A stretch of DNA of 43,536 nucleotides from Bacillota bacterium (GTDB lineage: Bacteria; Bacillota; Sulfobacillia; UBA995; UBA9673): the NCBI GenBank assembly GCA_003599345.1, contig QZJP01000020.1, positions 1 through 43,536 of the forward strand, given 5' to 3'. Made by a program: the position numbers and the translations under genes. Of the stretch, positions 12,505-31,974 are shown in pieces. Positions within the stretch are counted from its first letter, which is position 1. Each line of letters begins with the position of its first letter. The notes below the pieces were generated by a model. The model did not search any database. It was not told the origin of the DNA and was given only the letters and a program-made list of their open reading frames with translations.

Positions 12505-12773
12505 CCGACGAGCCGCGCGACCCACCGGAGACGCCGCCCAAGCCACCTTCCAACGTCATCCCGTTCGGCCGCCGCCGGGTGCGCCGCAAATCGAAAGAGA
12601 CCGTCGTGAACGTCAACGTGAACACGCTGGCGGACGCGGCGCGGGCGGAAGTGCTCCTCACCGTCGGGGAACTGGCGCGGCGGGCGCGGCGGGGCGGGGT
12701 GAAGGGCTGGCTGGCGGGGCGCGTTCTGCGGCCGGTGGCGGAGGCGTTCGACTACGTCTTTCGGGGCGAGTGA
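12501..12773 (+). CDS. Unknown basic protein
   Basis: Encodes 90 aa from GTG 12501, coupled to the preceding gene by GTGA. The N-terminus is Pro-rich and then strongly basic (GRRRVRRKSKE). The middle has VVNVNVNTLADAARAEVLLT and the end is helical. No family is recognised. It lies between two small membrane-protein genes in the lysis/accessory region. The codon pattern is consistent with a real gene. Confidence 0.6.
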   Translation: MTDEPRDPPETPPKPPSNVIPFGRRRVRRKSKETVVNVNVNTLADAARAEVLLTVGELARRARRGGVKGWLAGRVLRPVAEAFDYVFRGE

Positions 12774-12784
12774 GGGGAGGGGTG

Positions 12785-13117
12785 ATGAGCATGACTCGCA
12801 AACTTGACCGCAAGATCGTTCTTAATCGTATCCAGCAGCATCTAGTGTCTCTCACTCCCGACATAGATGACTGGAACGTGGACGAGGACGGGCGGGATTG
12901 TTCAACTGACTGTGTCTGGTTTCTCATGCTTGAATTTGGCGACTGGGGCGTGTGCGTGAACCCGCGCTCGCCGAGAGTCGGCCGGCTGACCTGGGAACAC
13001 CAAGGTTGCCCGGCTTGGGAGTACTCGGACTGGTGGGATAGGCCCTCGGAGGAAGGCCTGGCGAGAAGGTTGGGACAAAAGCGTTCGACTACGTGTTCAG
13101 CGGACAGTAGACCTTGA
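12785..13117 (+). CDS. Unknown acidic/aromatic protein
   Basis: Encodes 110 aa from ATG 12785, with GGGGAGGGG upstream; an in-frame GTG/ATG a little earlier is less well placed. It is rich in Trp, Asp and Cys (DIDDWNVDEDGRDC, WFLMLEFGDWG, WEYSDWWDRPSEEGL). The base composition is less GC-rich than the neighbours. No family is recognised. The final 20 residues look low-quality (RSTTCSADSRP), so the C-terminus may have decayed. Confidence 0.55.
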   Translation: MSMTRKLDRKIVLNRIQQHLVSLTPDIDDWNVDEDGRDCSTDCVWFLMLEFGDWGVCVNPRSPRVGRLTWEHQGCPAWEYSDWWDRPSEEGLARRLGQKRSTTCSADSRP

Positions 13118-13155
13118 CCACCTGCCTCGTGGCGGGACAGAGGGGGTGAAGCGGT

Positions 13156-13347
13156 ATGGTGAAAGAGAAGCTCACGTCGCGCAAGTTCTGGATGGCCGTC
13201 CTGGGCGCGCTCCTGCCGGTCCTCAATTCCGAATTCGGCTGGAACCTGCCTGTCGAAGCCATCCTGAGCGTCGCGGCCGTCATCATCGGTTACATCCTCG
13301 TTGAAGGGAACATAGACGCCAAGCGCGTCGCCAACGAGGGCTTGTGA
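13156..13347 (+). CDS. Holin-like protein
   Basis: Encodes 63 aa from ATG 13156, with AGAGGGGGTG upstream. It starts with a charged segment and KFWMAVLGALLPVLNSEFGW, then has a second hydrophobic helix VEAILSVAAVIIGYILVEG and a charged tail NIDAKRV. This two-helix pattern, with RKFW near the start and an acidic motif after the second helix, is common in small holins of Bacillota phages. With the XhlA-like protein and endolysin it would make a complete lysis set, although the genes are spread over 5 kb. Confidence 0.65.
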   Translation: MVKEKLTSRKFWMAVLGALLPVLNSEFGWNLPVEAILSVAAVIIGYILVEGNIDAKRVANEGL

Positions 13348-13361
13348 GGCCGGCAGCACCA

Positions 13362-13441
13362 CCGCTCCCGATGAACCGCCGCCTGCCCACGGCGGGGAGG
13401 GGGCGGGAGATTGTTCGTCTTAGGGAGGGGTAGGAATGGAA
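13362..13441 (+). repeat. 80-bp direct repeat, copy 1 (leader and ribosome site)
   Basis: It is identical to 14184-14263 at 79 of 80 positions (difference at 13429/14251). It holds a 6-bp hairpin CCGCCG/CGGCGG with an 8-nt loop (13376-13395), a G-rich stretch, the ribosome site and the first two codons of the gene at 13436. It looks like a mobile or duplicated 5' leader that sets expression of what follows. Confidence 0.9.
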
Positions 13442-13972
13442 CGGCTCAGCAATGAGATACCGGACCGTGTGATGGTAGCACACCTGCCACCCCATCGTCG
13501 CGAGCAGCGGCACGAGACCTCCTCGGATGCTCGGGTCGTTCCTGGAACAACGTGCACGGTCGGGGACCGCTTAGTGTTCATCACTCACATCACGTCCCTC
13601 TGTGGCAACGAGGTCTGCTCGGGTTACTTACTATCAACCCAACTGAGCATGGCTACCGAGCATGACCTCGTGGCAACCCCGGCCACCACCGGTCTCGGCT
13701 ACAGCACGGTCGTAGAAGCATGGAACCCAGTCCATCTGTTCAAGGAGGAATGCCAGTCGGTGACGGCGGGCGAGTTAAGTCTCCTGCTTCAATGCCCATG
13801 CGGGAAGCCTCTGCTCGACTCAGCGGACGTTAGGGTCCCGTTCCAGTTGGCTGAGACCGCAGAAGCAGCACGGCTCTCTGAACGGGCGACAGCTAGTTGG
13901 ATATCGGACGATGCTGACGGCCAGGGCGTCCTTGAGAGGCTGAAGGCCGTGAAAGGAGGGGAAAGGCGATGA
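13436..13972 (+). CDS. Unknown protein behind repeated leader
   Basis: Encodes 178 aa from ATG 13436, whose start and ribosome site lie in the 80-bp repeat. It contains two Cys pairs (CGNEVC at about 56-61 and CPCGK near 120), VGDRLVFITHITSLCG and a helical acidic C-terminal part. No family is recognised. Its composition is less GC-biased than the structural genes. It overlaps the next gene by 4 bases. Confidence 0.6.
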   Translation: MERLSNEIPDRVMVAHLPPHRREQRHETSSDARVVPGTTCTVGDRLVFITHITSLCGNEVCSGYLLSTQLSMATEHDLVATPATTGLGYSTVVEAWNPVHLFKEECQSVTAGELSLLLQCPCGKPLLDSADVRVPFQLAETAEAARLSERATASWISDDADGQGVLERLKAVKGGERR

Positions 13973-14175
13973 CCGATGCAACCGCAACGTGGAGAGTTCG
14001 CAGGGACCGATACGGCTATGCGTGTGCTATTGAATATGGTGGGCAGACGGTCCTACATCTGGTCCCTGGGAGCGTGCTCAATGAGCAGAGCGCCGAGGAT
14101 GTCGCCGAACTTCTGCAGGAGGCGTTGGAGGCGAAGAATGAGGGTGAGTGGACAGCAAGGAGGAGCGAGCCGTGA
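13969..14175 (+). CDS. Small unknown protein
   Basis: Encodes 68 aa from ATG 13969 (ATGA overlap, with GGAGGGG upstream). It has a beta-strand-like N-terminal half (TWRVRRDRYGYACAIEYGGQTVLHL) and a helical half (SAEDVAELLQEALEAK). This compact alpha/beta pattern recalls small phage regulators, but no family can be named. Confidence 0.6.
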   Translation: MTDATATWRVRRDRYGYACAIEYGGQTVLHLVPGSVLNEQSAEDVAELLQEALEAKNEGEWTARRSEP

Positions 14176-14183
14176 AGCGGGTC

Positions 14184-14263
14184 CCGCTCCCGATGAACCG
14201 CCGCCTGCCCACGGCGGGGAGGGGGCGGGAGATTGTTCGTCTTAGGGAGGAGTAGGAATGGAA
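14184..14263 (+). repeat. 80-bp direct repeat, copy 2 (leader and ribosome site)
   Basis: Second copy of the element at 13362-13441. The start codon in this copy opens only a 15-codon ORF (14258-14305). That ORF ends in an overlap with the GTG start of the ASCH gene, so the repeat here acts as a translated leader. Confidence 0.9.
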
Positions 14264-14305
14264 GACTACGCGGTGCTCCGCAACGGGACGTGGCCGAAGC
14301 CGTGA
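14258..14305 (+). CDS. 15-residue leader peptide
   Basis: ATG 14258 is supplied by the repeat and the frame ends at TGA 14303-14305, overlapping GTG 14302 of the next gene. The peptide (MEDYAVLRNGTWPKP) probably couples translation from the repeat's strong ribosome site to the ASCH gene, which has no good ribosome site of its own. Confidence 0.5.
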   Translation: MEDYAVLRNGTWPKP

Positions 14306-14637
14306 TTCTCTTCAAACCCTGCCACGTCGCCCCCATCCTCGCGCGCGCCAAGACCCAGACGCGTCGCCTTCACGTTCCCTTCCGCTGGCGCGTGGGCGCC
14401 GTCCACGGCTGCTTCACCGACATGCGCCGCGGCGCCCGGCCTTTCGCGCGCGTGCGCATCCTCCGCCGGTGGTCCGAACCCCTGGGCGCGATATCGGAGG
14501 CGGACGCGCGGGCGGAGGGGTACGGGTCGCGCGAGGACTACCTGCGGGCGTTCGAGGAGATAAACCGGAAGGCCGGGGCGGTAGACCTCGGGCGGGAAGT
14601 GAGTTGTTACGAGTTCGAGTTGGTGGAGGAGGGATAG
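14302..14637 (+). CDS. ASCH-domain protein
   Basis: Encodes 111 aa from GTG 14302. The start ILFKPCHVAPILARAKTQTRRL matches the ASCH pattern (xxFKPxxxxxIxxGxKTQTRR). Later come the typical ARVRILRRWSEPLGAISEADARAEGYGS and YEFELVEE strand. ASCH domains are PUA-like beta-barrels thought to bind RNA or act on modified nucleosides. Phages often carry them near nucleic-acid enzymes. Translation is probably coupled to the upstream 15-residue leader. Confidence 0.8.
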   Translation: MILFKPCHVAPILARAKTQTRRLHVPFRWRVGAVHGCFTDMRRGARPFARVRILRRWSEPLGAISEADARAEGYGSREDYLRAFEEINRKAGAVDLGREVSCYEFELVEEG

Positions 14638-14639
14638 AC

Positions 14640-15203
14640 ATGAAGAAAATCGACACCATGTTTGACCGGGGCGACCAATTCAAGGTCACACCAAAGGTCC
14701 GCAAGGACTGCGAATGGGTTCTCGCTGGAGAAGGGGTGGCCACGGAGAAACTGGACGGGACCAATGTATTGGTCGCTGAAGGTCCAGACGGCCAAGCCCT
14801 ATGGCCTTGGAAGCGGCGCAATCCAACGGAGGAGGAAAAGGCTGCTGGAGTCGAGCCTACCAATATCCCGTGCGTCCTTGGAGACCCCTCGGACAAGTGG
14901 ATTTGGGATGCCTTCAACAACACGCCTGACCTGAGTCCTGGGTACTACGAGGCCGTTGGCCCCAAGATACAAGGCAATCCTCTTGGTTTAGATCATCATG
15001 TTCTTGTGCGGCTCGACGAGATGCCCGTCTACCCCGATTGCCCCAGAACTTTCGATGGACTTCGGGACTATTTAAGGAACCTCGAAAGCCTGTACTCCCC
15101 CGGCCATCTTGTCGAGGGCATTGTGTTCCATCATCCTGATGGGCGCATGGCCAAGATCAAGCGCAAGGACTTCCGATATTCCTTGGCTCCCAAGGCCGAT
15201 TAG
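14640..15203 (+). CDS. RNA ligase (Rnl2-like nucleotidyltransferase)
   Basis: Encodes 187 aa from ATG 14640. EKLDGTN (36-42) is motif I, with Lys37 as the expected adenylated residue. YYEAVG (102-107) is in the motif III region, VEGIVF (158-163) is motif IV and AKIKRKDF (171-178) is motif V. This order and spacing fit the small RNA ligase family (PF09414-like). Such enzymes seal nicked RNA; T4 ligases repair tRNAs cut by host anticodon nucleases. No polynucleotide kinase is visible. The presence of tRNA-like RNAs in this genome makes an RNA-repair or RNA-processing role worth testing. Confidence 0.85.
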   Translation: MKKIDTMFDRGDQFKVTPKVRKDCEWVLAGEGVATEKLDGTNVLVAEGPDGQALWPWKRRNPTEEEKAAGVEPTNIPCVLGDPSDKWIWDAFNNTPDLSPGYYEAVGPKIQGNPLGLDHHVLVRLDEMPVYPDCPRTFDGLRDYLRNLESLYSPGHLVEGIVFHHPDGRMAKIKRKDFRYSLAPKAD

Positions 15204-15213
15204 GAGGGCTAAC

Positions 15214-15585
15214 ATGGCCGATATGAACTGCTGTTCGTTCACCGGCCGGCTGGTGGACGACCCGAAACTGGAGTACTCGACCGGCGCGGACGGCAAGACC
15301 ATCACGCGGGCGGGTTTCCGGCTCGCCGTGGGGCGGAGGAAGCAGGGCGAGACCGACTTCTTCAACTTCACCCTCTGGGGCCGCGGGGCGGAGTTCTTCA
15401 CGAAGTACTGCGGCAAGGGCCAGCGCGTGGGCCTCTCGGGATGCCGCGCCGAGGTCAACGAGTGGACGACGCGCGAGGGTGAGAAACGGCGCGACGTGCG
15501 GTTCATCGTGGGCGACTGGCACTTCGCGGACGGGAAGCGCGACGCGGAGACGGCTCACGGGGACGCGTGGGAGGGGGAGGCGTAG
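15214..15585 (+). CDS. ssb: Single-stranded DNA-binding protein
   Basis: Encodes 123 aa from ATG 15214, with TAGGAGGG upstream. It is an OB-fold with the SSB family pattern: FTGRLVDDPKLEY at the start, FRLAVGRRKQGETDFFNFTLWGRGAEFF in the middle, GQRVGLSGCRAEVNEW, then RFIVGDWHF. The C-terminal tail is short (HGDAWEGEA) and lacks the bacterial DDDIPF tip, so it may not recruit the usual host partners. It coats ssDNA during replication and recombination. Confidence 0.88.
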   Translation: MADMNCCSFTGRLVDDPKLEYSTGADGKTITRAGFRLAVGRRKQGETDFFNFTLWGRGAEFFTKYCGKGQRVGLSGCRAEVNEWTTREGEKRRDVRFIVGDWHFADGKRDAETAHGDAWEGEA

Positions 15586-22536: not shown

Positions 22537-23361
22537 GTGGCGGAGATTGACCATCTGAGTCCGACTTCGATACGCATGTTCGACAGGTGCCCCCGCCAGT
22601 GGATGTACCGCTATGTTCAAGGTCGGAAGCTCCGGCCCGCCGGGGCGCTCATCGTGGGCGGTAGTTACCATGCCGCGCTGGAGATGTGGGGCACGAAGAA
22701 ACTGGAGACCGGGAAGGACCTCGACGCGGATACCCTCGCGGACAAGTACATCGATGAGTTCGACCGCCGCGCCGGGGAGGAAGACGTGGACTGGGAGGGC
22801 GAGAGTCCAGTCGCCGAGCGCGACCGGGGCGTCCGGCTCGTGAGGGCGCACCGGCGCCAAAGGGCGACGAGTCTCAAGCCCGTGTGGGTGGAGGCCGACG
22901 TGCCCGTCGATATCCTGGACGCGGACGGCCAATCCCTTGGGCGGCTCGTCCAGCGGCTCGACTTCTACGGGGTTGACGGCGTGGTGCGCGACTTCAAGAC
23001 AAGCTCGAAGAAACCCGGCGCGGCGGAAGTGGAACAGAGCAACCAGCTCACGTCCTACTACGGCGCGACGAAGCTCCATCTCGCGGCGCAGGGTATCCAG
23101 GCGGACCCGCCGGTCGCGCTGGAGGTCGCAGTGGACTACAAGACGCGGCCCGCCGAGGTCTACGTGGCGCAGGCGCGGCGGACGGAGGAGGATTGGCGCG
23201 AGTGGCTGGAGCACGTCGCGGCGATCTACCGGATGATCCGGGCCGACATCTTCCCGCGCAACACCGAGGGGTGGCATTGCAGCCCGCAAAAGTGCGGCTA
23301 CTTCCACCTGTGCCGGCCGCACCGTATCCTGAGCATTCCCGCGGCGCGTGTCGCGGGGTAA
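22537..23361 (+). CDS. PD-(D/E)XK exonuclease (Cas4/RecB-like)
   Basis: Encodes 274 aa. GTG 22537 is preferred to GTG 22528 because GAGGAGG ends at 22527. LSPTSIRMFDRCPRQWMYRYV is the usual PDDEXK_1 opening with the first Cys. The core has VGGSYHAALE, then DGVVRDFKTSSK (the D...D-x-K catalytic strand). The end, CSPQKCGYFHLC, supplies the remaining Cys of an Fe-S cluster as in Cas4/AddB. It probably resects DNA ends for the Rad52-type annealing protein next door. Confidence 0.8.
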   Translation: MAEIDHLSPTSIRMFDRCPRQWMYRYVQGRKLRPAGALIVGGSYHAALEMWGTKKLETGKDLDADTLADKYIDEFDRRAGEEDVDWEGESPVAERDRGVRLVRAHRRQRATSLKPVWVEADVPVDILDADGQSLGRLVQRLDFYGVDGVVRDFKTSSKKPGAAEVEQSNQLTSYYGATKLHLAAQGIQADPPVALEVAVDYKTRPAEVYVAQARRTEEDWREWLEHVAAIYRMIRADIFPRNTEGWHCSPQKCGYFHLCRPHRILSIPAARVAG

Positions 23362-23374
23362 GGGGGTTGTGACG

Positions 23375-24163
23375 ATGGAGCGAGACGTTAAGGAAATCAT
23401 GGCGGCTCTCCGTGAGCCGTTCCCGGACAACGATGTTGAATGGCGCGTGGGGCGCGAGTCCAAGGACGGCACGAAGATGTCTCTCTTGGCCTATCTCACT
23501 GCCCGCGCCATCATGGAGCGGCTCGATGACGTGTTCGGTATCGACGGTTGGTGCGACTCCTACGAACGCTGGGGCGAAAAGAGCATCAAGTGCCGCCTAT
23601 CCATACGCATCGGCGGTGAGTGGGTGACGCGGGAAGACGGCGCGGACGAGACGGAGTTCGAGGGAACCAAGGGCGGCTTCTCGGACGCCTTGAAGCGGGC
23701 CGCCGTGAAGTTCGGCGTGGGCCGCTACCTCTACAATCTGCCCGAGTCGTGGATGACTCTTTCCGATCAGCGGCTTTCCGACGGCATTTACCACAAGGGC
23801 AAGTTCGCCCCCCGCCCCGCGCTTCCCGAATGGGCGCTCCCCGGCGGTTCCGGCAAGCCCGAGAAGCGCAACGGTAACGGCGGCAGCACCGGCGGTGTGC
23901 CCGTCGCCCGCGTGGGCGGTGCCCGGGCCTCCGTGGTGCGGGCCGCGGCACCCACCACCCCCGCCGACCTCCGCGCCGTGTCCGCCAACGAACTCTCCGA
24001 CACCATGGCGCGGCTCAAGTTCGGAACACGCGAGGTGCTGGCCGTCGCCCGCGAGGTCCTGGGGCGCGACATCCCCGACATGACGACCCTGCGCGCGCAG
24101 GACGCCCTGGATATCGGGCGCGTGGTGATGGAGATGGAAGCGAGAAGGGGTGAGGTGGCGTGA
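23375..24163 (+). CDS. Rad52/Rad22-type single-strand annealing protein
   Basis: Encodes 262 aa from ATG 23375. The N-terminal 150 residues match the Rad52_Rad22 fold: NDVEWRVG, LAYLTARAIMERLDDVFGIDGW, GFSDALKRAAVKFGVGRYLYNLP. The C-terminal third has a Gly/Ala-rich linker and a helical end. It binds ssDNA and anneals complementary strands, so with the upstream nuclease it forms a lambda Exo/Beta-like recombination pair. It overlaps the next gene by 4 bases. Confidence 0.88.
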   Translation: MERDVKEIMAALREPFPDNDVEWRVGRESKDGTKMSLLAYLTARAIMERLDDVFGIDGWCDSYERWGEKSIKCRLSIRIGGEWVTREDGADETEFEGTKGGFSDALKRAAVKFGVGRYLYNLPESWMTLSDQRLSDGIYHKGKFAPRPALPEWALPGGSGKPEKRNGNGGSTGGVPVARVGGARASVVRAAAPTTPADLRAVSANELSDTMARLKFGTREVLAVAREVLGRDIPDMTTLRAQDALDIGRVVMEMEARRGEVA

Positions 24164-29925: not shown

Positions 29926-30339
29926 CTAACCCTGCGCGACCTCGACGCCTTGTTCGCGCAGCCAAACAATGTCGGCTTTGGCGGCCTCGCGGTCGCAAGT
30001 CTTAATCCAGCCCGCTATCGGCTTGTAAACGGTGCCGGCCGCATCGGGTTCGTACCAGTAGCCGCGTGCCTTAAGGGCGTCCTTGACCTCGTAAGCGTAG
30101 ATGACCCTAATCTCGATTCGGTCCGGCGTCTCGGGTTCGGCGGCCTTACGCTCTAGGCGCTCAAGTTCGGCTCGATGCTTGGCCAGGCCGCGCTTGTCGC
30201 TCTCGACCGCGCTGGGGATGTCGCCGAGTGTCCGGATGCGCTCCTCGTAGACGGCGATGAGCCGCCGCTCCTCGGCAATGTTGTCGGCGTACCGATTGGG
30301 CTTGTGGTCCGGGATTAGGGCGACTATCGCTTTGGCCAT
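29926..30339 (-). CDS. Unknown coiled-coil protein
   Basis: Encodes 137 aa from ATG 30337-30339, with AGAGAGGAG upstream. Residues about 17-70 are a charged coiled coil (IAEERRLIAVYEERIRTL, LAKHRAELERLERK). The rest is a compact domain (IEIRVIYAYEVKDALKARGYWYE, IAGWIKTCDREAAKADIVWL). No family is recognised. Confidence 0.6.
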   Translation of the reverse strand: MAKAIVALIPDHKPNRYADNIAEERRLIAVYEERIRTLGDIPSAVESDKRGLAKHRAELERLERKAAEPETPDRIEIRVIYAYEVKDALKARGYWYEPDAAGTVYKPIAGWIKTCDREAAKADIVWLREQGVEVAQG

Positions 30340-30354
30340 CTGTCTCGCTCCTCT

Positions 30355-30585
30355 CTACCCCGGCCCCTTCGCGGGCCCGCGGGCGCAGTACTCCTCAATC
30401 GCACTACTGACAACCTCATGTATCGTCCGCCCCTCCGCCTCCGCGCGGGCGGCGGCAATGCGGCGGTAGTACGGGCGCAGGCGGATATCCGCCCAGCCGT
30501 GCCGCTGATCGACGTAATCCGCCGCAGCGGCGCGGGGCATGCCGGCGGCGACGAGTTCGGCGACGAGGGCGGCGCGGTCAGGCAT
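30355..30585 (-). CDS. Small helical protein (RHH-like)
   Basis: Encodes 76 aa from ATG 30583-30585, with AGGGGG upstream. It has RAALVAELVAAGMPRAAAADYVDQ, then DIRLRPYYRRIAAARAEAEGRTIHEVVSSAIEEY, the second part resembling a ribbon-helix-helix or similar regulator tail. Its last codons (ARGPAKGPG) are formed by an intercistronic repeat, so the C-terminus may be shaped by that element. Confidence 0.5.
   Translation of the reverse strand: MPDRAALVAELVAAGMPRAAAADYVDQRHGWADIRLRPYYRRIAAARAEAEGRTIHEVVSSAIEEYCARGPAKGPG
30356..30377 (-). repeat. Intercistronic hairpin repeat, copy 1
   Basis: On the - strand GGCCC-GCGAAG-GGGCC forms a 5-bp hairpin followed by GGGG. Near-identical copies lie at 31596-31615 and 31940-31959. 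Each precedes the ribosome site of the next leftward gene. Confidence 0.75.
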
Positions 30586-30865: not shown

Positions 30866-31067
30866 CGGTGCGCACCTCCCATACCCCGTTCACGCGACGA
30901 ACAGGGAGCCAGAGAGTGCCAGGACAGACATGCTCAAATTTGGGATTGACACCGTGGCCGCACAGCGGGCAACGTACCCTGTCGCAAACGGCGATGTGAG
31001 TGGATAGCTCAATCCCGGCCTTGCGCCACGCCCCACATCGGGGGCACTGCTCGTAACGGTCAGCCAC
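30858..31067 (-). CDS. Double zinc-finger-like protein
   Basis: Encodes 69 aa. GTG at 31065-31067 follows AGGAGGT. CPRCGAW...H...C and CPLCGHGV...H..C (about residues 8-28 and 34-49) form two CxxC...HxxxC zinc modules. A strand-rich end (GTLWLPVRRVNGVWEVR) follows. Likely a nucleic-acid-binding accessory protein. Confidence 0.7.
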   Translation of the reverse strand: MADRYEQCPRCGAWRKAGIELSTHIAVCDRVRCPLCGHGVNPKFEHVCPGTLWLPVRRVNGVWEVRTDA

Positions 31068-31380
31068 GGGGGGCGACCTCCTGCGCTTCAAAGGCGGCGG
31101 CCAGCGCGATCTCGATGATGCGTCGGCGGTTGGCGGCGAGGATGCGGTCGAGGTCGGCGAAGGTCTCCTCGATGTCGAGGCCCGTGACGTAGGCGAGTAG
31201 GGAGGCGGCATCCTCCCATGTCTGGGCGGCCGCGCGATAGGCGGTGGCAGTCCTACTTGAGCCATAGCCCCGCGTATCGCACTGACGGGCCATCTCGCCG
31301 TACTGACGGGCTTGCTCGCGGAACCAGTGAAGCAGACCCGCGAAGTCGCGGTGCTTTAGGGGTTCTGCCATGTCAGACAC
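31060..31380 (-). CDS. Unknown helical protein
   Basis: Encodes 106 aa from GTG 31378-31380, which sits 8 bases after AGGAGGT; ATG 31371 is a less likely start. It is all-helical (AGLLHWFREQARQYGEMARQ, AYRAAAQTWEDAASLLAYV, ADLDRILAANRRRIIEIALA). No family is recognised. It overlaps both neighbours. Confidence 0.6.
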   Translation of the reverse strand: MSDMAEPLKHRDFAGLLHWFREQARQYGEMARQCDTRGYGSSRTATAYRAAAQTWEDAASLLAYVTGLDIEETFADLDRILAANRRRIIEIALAAAFEAQEVAPRG

Positions 31381-31579
31381 GGGGGACGACCTCCTGCCGT
31401 ACTGCAGTGATGGCGCGCTTGTGGTGCTGCAGACCGGCCAGCAACTCCACGAGCGGCCCGACGGCGGCCAAGAGTTCGGCGTCCTCGCGCGCCCAGCGCT
31501 CCGCGACCCGGCGCGGGGTCGGACGTTCGCGGCGGCGAGCCCGGCGTGCCTGGCGCGGGTCGAACCATACGATTGTCAT
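31373..31579 (-). CDS. Small basic helical protein
   Basis: Encodes 68 aa from ATG 31577-31579, with AAAGGAG upstream. It starts MTIVWFDPRQARRARRRERP and continues with a long helix (RRVAERWAREDAELLAAVGPLVELLAGL). No family is recognised. The basic N-terminus suggests nucleic-acid contact. Confidence 0.6.
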   Translation of the reverse strand: MTIVWFDPRQARRARRRERPTPRRVAERWAREDAELLAAVGPLVELLAGLQHHKRAITAVRQEVVPRV

Positions 31580-31595
31580 GCGCTCGCTCCTTTCG

Positions 31596-31615
31596 CCCCG
31601 GCCCCTTCGCGGGCC
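31596..31615 (-). repeat. Intercistronic hairpin repeat, copy 2
   Basis: Second copy of the GGCCC-GCGAAG-GGGCC hairpin, between the Lar-like gene and the small basic gene. The flanking bases (TGCGGGCT on +) also resemble those of the other copies. Confidence 0.75.
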
Positions 31616-31621
31616 TGCGGG

Positions 31622-31921
31622 CTACCCGTGACCTTGCCGGACCTCCACAAATCGGCCCGGCGCAACTGGCTTGAACCCGGTACATGTCCGGGACTCCGCA
31701 CGATGGCGGGCCGCTGTGCGGAACCAGGATGCCAAGGCGGCCCGACGAGTCGGCTTGGCCTCGGCCCCGCGCCAGCCGCACTTGCAGTAGCCGACAAAAC
31801 CAATGGGGGTACCGGCCCGCCCTTGATTGGGTTGGGCGTACTCGGTCAGACATAGGACTACGCCACCGCAGAGGGGACACGGGCGCCGGGCCTGTGTGGT
31901 GCCTGCGGGCCACCTGGCCAT
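31622..31921 (-). CDS. Lar-like restriction alleviation protein
   Basis: Encodes 99 aa from ATG 31919-31921, with AGGAGGAG upstream. CPLCGG at 15-20, CKCGWRGAEAKPTRRAALASWF follow the Lar/zinc-ribbon pattern (CPFCGG...C...CGxxGPxxxTxxEAIxxWN). Lar proteins of Rac-type elements reduce cleavage of unmodified DNA by type I restriction systems. The fit is to the signature, not to a verified homologue. The C-terminal 30 residues are unusual. Confidence 0.65.
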   Translation of the reverse strand: MARWPAGTTQARRPCPLCGGVVLCLTEYAQPNQGRAGTPIGFVGYCKCGWRGAEAKPTRRAALASWFRTAARHRAESRTCTGFKPVAPGRFVEVRQGHG

Positions 31922-31939
31922 TGCCGACTCCTCCTCTCA

Positions 31940-31959
31940 CCCCGGCCCCTTCGCGGGCC
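31940..31959 (-). repeat. Intercistronic hairpin repeat, copy 3
   Basis: Third copy of the GGCCC-GCGAAG-GGGCC hairpin, between the broken HExxH gene and the Lar-like gene. Confidence 0.75.
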
Positions 31960-31974
31960 TGGCGGGCTTAGTGC

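Follow-up and report, generated by a model that had tools for sequence, protein, structure and literature searches.

Direct repeats that fold and that separate unrelated genes are known from integrons, where they form the attC sites. T4-type phages carry the PeSL cassettes, reportedly described by Arbiol in 2010 and Comeau in 2014 (cited in PMC4503421), in which a short intergenic element is repeated beside accessory genes. This element reportedly combines an early promoter with a terminator stem-loop, and the cassettes are said to have been proposed to shuffle via homologous recombination, including through small circles.

Two systems of other phages resemble the locus described here in further respects. 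In the cluster O mycobacteriophage Corndog, a 17-bp direct repeat brackets gene 14 and occurs just once in those relatives that lack gene 14, while a 24-bp imperfect repeat accompanies gene 60 of YungJamal; for Corndog gene 14, the authors found gain and loss not distinguishable (PMC4351075). Meanwhile, the start-associated sequences (SAS) are a 13-bp motif conserved across phages and present in about 10-19 copies per genome. SAS and ESAS recur where the ribosome binds ahead of several unrelated accessory genes, a few bases before the start codon, and have an inverted repeat on their upstream side; the 13-bp consensus is GGGATAGGAGCCC in cluster K and GGGAAAGGACCCC in Microbacterium cluster EF (PMC3203893, PMC7302621).

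The window, which is the whole stretch of 43,536 nucleotides that was analysed (contig QZJP01000020.1 of a Bacillota bacterium), contains a phage in which two 80-nt direct repeats, A1 and A2, lie at gene starts (Table 1). Their coordinates and their identity at 79 of 80 positions were borne out exactly as reported in the initial annotation, as was its statement that both copies terminate just past an ATG, each ending in ATG GAA. The sole mismatch falls at repeat position 68, within the Shine-Dalgarno (SD) stretch (GGGAGGGG in A1, GGGAGGAG in A2), leaving a longest identical run of 67 nt, and the sequence outside the copies diverges immediately to the left and to the right. A1 starts 14 nt past the stop of the holin-like gene and A2 starts 8 nt past the stop of the 68-aa gene, with a start-to-start distance of 822 bp. 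Thus, each copy occupies most of its apparent intergenic gap and carries a full ribosome site and a start codon. The sole second copy of this phage is IMG/VR contig 3300007354_000003, which is identical across the 10.7 kb compared; both records may have one sample as their common source.

Table 1 Positions of the repeats, of the genes around them and of the putative recombination genes in the window
Feature	Position	Strand	Context or evidence
Repeat copy A1 (leader, SD GGGAGGGG, ATG GAA)	13362..13441	+	5' of 178-aa gene
Repeat copy A2 (leader, SD GGGAGGAG, ATG GAA)	14184..14263	+	5' of 15-codon ORF and ASCH-like gene
Putative inserted unit, 822 bp (one leader, 178-aa and 68-aa genes)	13362..14183	+	Repeat spacing; codon usage, GC3
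63-aa holin-like gene, left flank, native-like	13156..13347	+	phrog_9987 holin E 6.7e-4; homologue in L013; GC3 0.844
Possible 29-codon ORF, holds most of A1, GTGA overlap with preceding stop	13344..13433	+	
178-aa gene, foreign codon usage, without homologue or domain	13436..13972	+	Searches and codon usage
68-aa gene, foreign codon usage, ATGA overlap with 178-aa gene	13969..14175	+	Codon usage
Possible 27-codon ORF, holds most of A2	14172..14255	+	
15-codon ORF opened by A2, stop overlaps ASCH start (GTGA)	14258..14305	+	
ASCH-like (YqfB-like) 111-aa gene, right flank, native-like	14302..14637	+	
Single-strand DNA binding protein (SSB)	15214..15585	+	phrog_44 E 6e-21
PD-(D/E)XK nuclease, likely partner exonuclease	22537..23361	+	PF12705 E 5.8e-24
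Rad52/Rad22-family annealing protein, likely recombinase	23375..24163	+	PF04098 E 4.3e-21
Family B leader copy 1 (hairpin GGCCC/GGGCC, SD AGGAG)	31931..31961	-	Before gene 31622-31921
Family B leader copy 2	31587..31617	-	Before gene 31373-31579
Family B leader copy 3	30349..30379	-	Before gene 29926-30339
Family C, 26-nt near-identical start junctions	31059-31084, 31372-31397	-	Before two adjacent genes

The genes that follow the two copies differ. The ATG of A1 (13436) opens the 178-aa gene and that of A2 (14258) opens a 15-codon ORF, MEDYAVLRNGTWPKP, whose TGA shares bases with the GTG start (14302) of the ASCH-like gene as GTGA; both starts agree with the initial annotation. The proteins encoded downstream of A1 and A2 are unrelated, and the refuting case named in the initial annotation, with one and the same gene behind both copies, does not apply. 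Gene calls are approximate, and so is the ASCH label, which we retain only as a weakly supported one: the window protein has no Pfam or NCBIfam match, while its homologue in viral contig L006 (48% identity), which begins at the same MILFK position, matches the N4-acetylcytidine aminohydrolase model at E 1.6e-6, below the model cut-off. This aminohydrolase is an ASCH-fold enzyme.

With the long genes of the phage as the codon-usage reference, the 178-aa and 68-aa genes had a mean of -0.117 bits per codon, whereas native windows of similar length had a mean of 0.41 with an sd of 0.185 (z -2.84), and only one of 53 native windows was as low. GC3 of the two genes is 0.665 and 0.638, respectively, compared to 0.844 in the 63-aa gene, 0.875 in the ASCH-like gene and 0.911 in the 1120-aa gene. 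A foreign block of two genes therefore has native-like genes on either side, with one copy of the repeat at each of its edges. A nearby 108-aa gene and an RNA ligase gene are foreign-looking as well, but lack convincing flanking repeats; hence the whole neighbourhood is an accessory region, and composition alone is no proof of an insertion event. Around the foreign 108-aa gene, GCGTTCGACTACGT occurs at 12744 and 13081 (12744-12760 and 13081-13097), with a score of 29 in the junction comparison described below, where the random maximum was 30. At these two positions, the last part of the 90-aa gene (AFDYVF) recurs past the 108-aa gene with mostly synonymous changes, which is perhaps another insertion scar but is statistically marginal.

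The repeat shares traits with each of the described systems, and its layout fits Corndog gene 14 closely. As with Corndog gene 14, direct repeats at gene junctions bracket accessory DNA, and the interior genes appear foreign or sporadic, here by codon usage and GC3; unlike the 17-bp repeat of Corndog, the repeat is 80 bp long and carries a whole SD-start leader, and an empty-site relative is known for Corndog only. The idea of the PeSL is echoed by the presence of A1 and A2 beside accessory genes, but neither copy contains a T-tract (intrinsic) terminator or a sigma-70-like promoter, of which no site was found in 12600-15300 using the E. coli-type consensus. Like SAS and ESAS, the repeated sequence occupies the ribosome-binding position of unrelated accessory genes; unlike them, there are 2-3 copies per family rather than about ten or more and no relative with the leader occurred in the collections searched, and neither GGGATAGGAGCCC nor GGGAAAGGACCCC was found at the repeats with up to two mismatches allowed. 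Finally, A1 and A2 resemble attC in that they are folding direct repeats with unrelated genes between and beyond them, but they precede the gene instead of following it, and the R-box pair GTTRRRY / RYYYAAC is absent from both.

The similarity between A1 and A2 is far beyond chance. Using 72 ORFs called with a simple codon/SD scheme, we compared all same-strand start junctions from -90 to +15; the A1/A2 pair scored 155, while the maximum in about 3000 random window-segment pairs was 30. The same comparison revealed two smaller families in the minus-strand accessory cluster. Family B consists of the hairpin GGCCCGCGAAGGGGCCGGGG, identical in three copies, and an AGGAG SD, placed before three unrelated small genes (scores 60-64). 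Family C, GCAGGAGGTCG(C/T)CCCCCGTG, has a score of 42 and precedes two genes, one with its start at 31067 and one with its start at 31380. Families A, B and C thus have two, three and two copies, respectively, and are mutually unrelated. The gene at 31622-31921, which has a low codon score (-0.25), sits between family B copies 1 and 2, suggesting a layout that resembles that of A, with a low-codon-score gene between two leader copies. One of the three family B genes showed weak likeness to Lar restriction-alleviation proteins (TIGR03655, E 0.0025).

Relatives were compared in a similar way. L040 and L039, the 1120-aa protein of which is 63% identical to that of the phage in its best segment, displayed no junction pair scoring at least 34 in a similar scan of the stretches compared, a weaker control since its own ORF filter drops copy A2, the ORF of which is too short. 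A plain repeat search of both stretches detected no repeat of the A1/A2 kind.

The initial annotation had called the leader portable. This stands as a description, in that an SD and an ATG are brought to unrelated genes and two further junction families exist in the genome, but not as portability between phages, given that the collections searched contained the element in this phage only. No leader was detected in plasmids, in phage records or in the 398 genomes that represented the phylum. Exact and gapped patterns retrieved from viral contigs only the same phage or chance matches that read as coding DNA, and the genomes of relatives gave weak matches only, of which those inspected likewise read as coding DNA. 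None of the collections searched yielded a homologue or a domain for the 178-aa protein, and related prophages were absent from the genome contigs.

Based on these findings, we consider it probable that A1 and A2 are direct repeats left by the addition of a two-gene accessory cassette, composed of the 178-aa and 68-aa genes, at a gene-start leader. Repeat-flanked gene gain is a known route by which phages acquire cargo and does not constitute a new system. The starting state would have been the holin-like gene followed by a single leader, the 15-codon ORF and the ASCH-like gene. The donor DNA, either linear or a small circle, would have carried the same or a nearly identical leader ahead of the 178-aa gene, and the outcome of the two routes would be indistinguishable. 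Recombination within the leader, probably via the Rad52-type single-strand annealing system of the phage, would then yield the order leader, 178-aa gene, 68-aa gene, leader and ASCH-like gene, in which the inserted unit amounts to 822 bp; a later recombination between A1 and A2 would delete the cassette cleanly. Each gene group retains a complete ribosome site and ATG, and the insertion therefore need not disturb expression. In L039 and L040, neither of them a close enough relative to reveal a single-copy state, the stretches compared contain neither the leader nor the 178-aa and 68-aa genes, in line with such a scar. Since neither an empty-site relative nor a donor with the same leader occurred in the collections searched, we infer the insertion and its direction (gain, as opposed to leader duplication), together with the donor and the recombinase used.

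The suggestion in the initial annotation that the repeat is a site for cassette recombination is supported by foreign interior genes, native-like flanks and the Rad52-type recombination genes that the phage encodes. The Rad52/Rad22-family gene lies directly 3' of the PD-(D/E)XK nuclease gene. Rad52-like phage recombinases are known to act on diverged sequences with relaxed fidelity (PMC3945230), in assays with homologies longer than 80 bp; for this reason, we infer the activity of a Rad52-type system on the 80 bp present here.

One alternative is that the repeat belongs to a selected family of regulatory leaders, like the start-associated sequences, in which a long stem hides the SD until a phage or host factor opens it and the accessory genes are co-controlled. 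The RNA of A1 does fold over its entire length (-41.2 kcal/mol, z -2.85), through a long stem that begins with the first base of the repeat and pairs CUCCC with the SD GGGAG. The near-identity of the copies extends to positions outside SD and ATG, the same phage has further repeated start junctions, and phages of clusters K and EF have conserved elements of a comparable kind (PMC3203893, PMC7302621). Nevertheless, we find this reading doubtful. The SD accessibility of A1 (0.16-0.17) ranks 7-9 of 70 genes and was matched or undercut by 30 of 300 shuffles, whereas that of A2 (0.30-0.46) is ordinary for the genome and the A2 fold is weaker (-36.5 kcal/mol, z -1.98). Two copies alone leave no room for covariation, the searches gave no covarying relative, and shuffled sequences fold as stably as the hairpins of family B. 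The hairpin CCGCCG/CGGCGG, to which a regulatory function had been ascribed, does occur in both copies, but it is not the preferred fold (-32.9 vs -41.2 kcal/mol); with unremarkable SD accessibility and a named hairpin that is not the stable one, that ascription is not supported. Following the genome-wide comparison and the shuffles, SD sequestration as the main function was rejected as unproven. A regulatory role of the leader is possible, but the support for it does not go beyond a good ribosome site. No Rfam family reached threshold at A1 or A2; the GA-cis RNA (RF02987), rejected as a candidate, scored 21.4 bits against a gathering threshold of 34.7, in copy 2 only and with a match that starts upstream of the repeat.

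The leader could also have been placed by local duplication or gene conversion before genes that were already there, with no gene gain. The single-base difference between A1 and A2, the unrelated genes downstream of them and the tight tandem cluster formed by the three copies of family B all fit such a duplication, but it leaves the contrast between the foreign interior and the native-like outer genes unexplained, and we judge it distinctly unlikely. Very improbable, in turn, is that the repeat represents the duplication of a tiny gene, 27-29 codons long, with a GTG start overlapping the preceding stop, a frame that the initial annotation does not mention. Although this frame is open in both copies and its GTG overlaps the TGA of the previous gene as GTGA, the repeat starts inside the ORF and extends beyond its stop, and neither the 29-codon nor the 27-codon ORF has coding support. 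The longer of the two has a codon score (-0.29) below the 5th percentile of training-gene pieces (-0.22), neither phage records nor the 154 genomes searched from the class contained a homologue, and the sole difference between A1 and A2 is non-synonymous. An assembly artefact that joined two places with a common short sequence is hardly credible: the two records of this phage may go back to a single metagenome, but the 67-nt identical run can be crossed by usual reads, the copies carry a real difference, and there is exact agreement between the contig of the host bin and that of IMG/VR.

The shared sequence lies exactly at the translation start. If A1 and A2 are the scar of a cassette addition, as we favor, an incoming gene would thereby arrive expression-ready while the resident gene keeps its own start. 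The locus would be a clear and large example of phage accessory regions growing gene by gene. The occurrence of three repeated start-junction families in one genome also provides a testable case, beyond T4-type phages and mycobacteriophages, for ribosome-site leaders that serve as handles for recombination. A broader version, in which the leaders of families A, B and C are general docking sites for cargo at which the Rad52-type system would swap unrelated genes with expression undisturbed, appears unlikely to us.

Additional features were observed elsewhere in the phage and its relatives. Positions 20452-20800 of the window contain two structured RNA-like stretches with TGGCTGGCGG / CCGCCAGCCA arms as bounds. 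The first has a fold z of -2.6. The second contains a tRNA-like fold (RF00005, 34.2 bits), and L039 has a counterpart of it with 80% identity, in inverted orientation and at a different place. A PAPS-reductase-domain protein encoded at 16445-17143 matches SspD of phosphorothioate defence (PADLOC E 3.2e-45), and its homologue in L039 appears interrupted, with a long opposite-strand ORF inside. A DNA methyltransferase gene of L039 (18269-20253) similarly appears interrupted by an opposite-strand HNH-like ORF. Finally, the same host bin encodes a second, distant relative of the 1120-aa protein, with 29% identity (G000 contig C8, 34629-36242).
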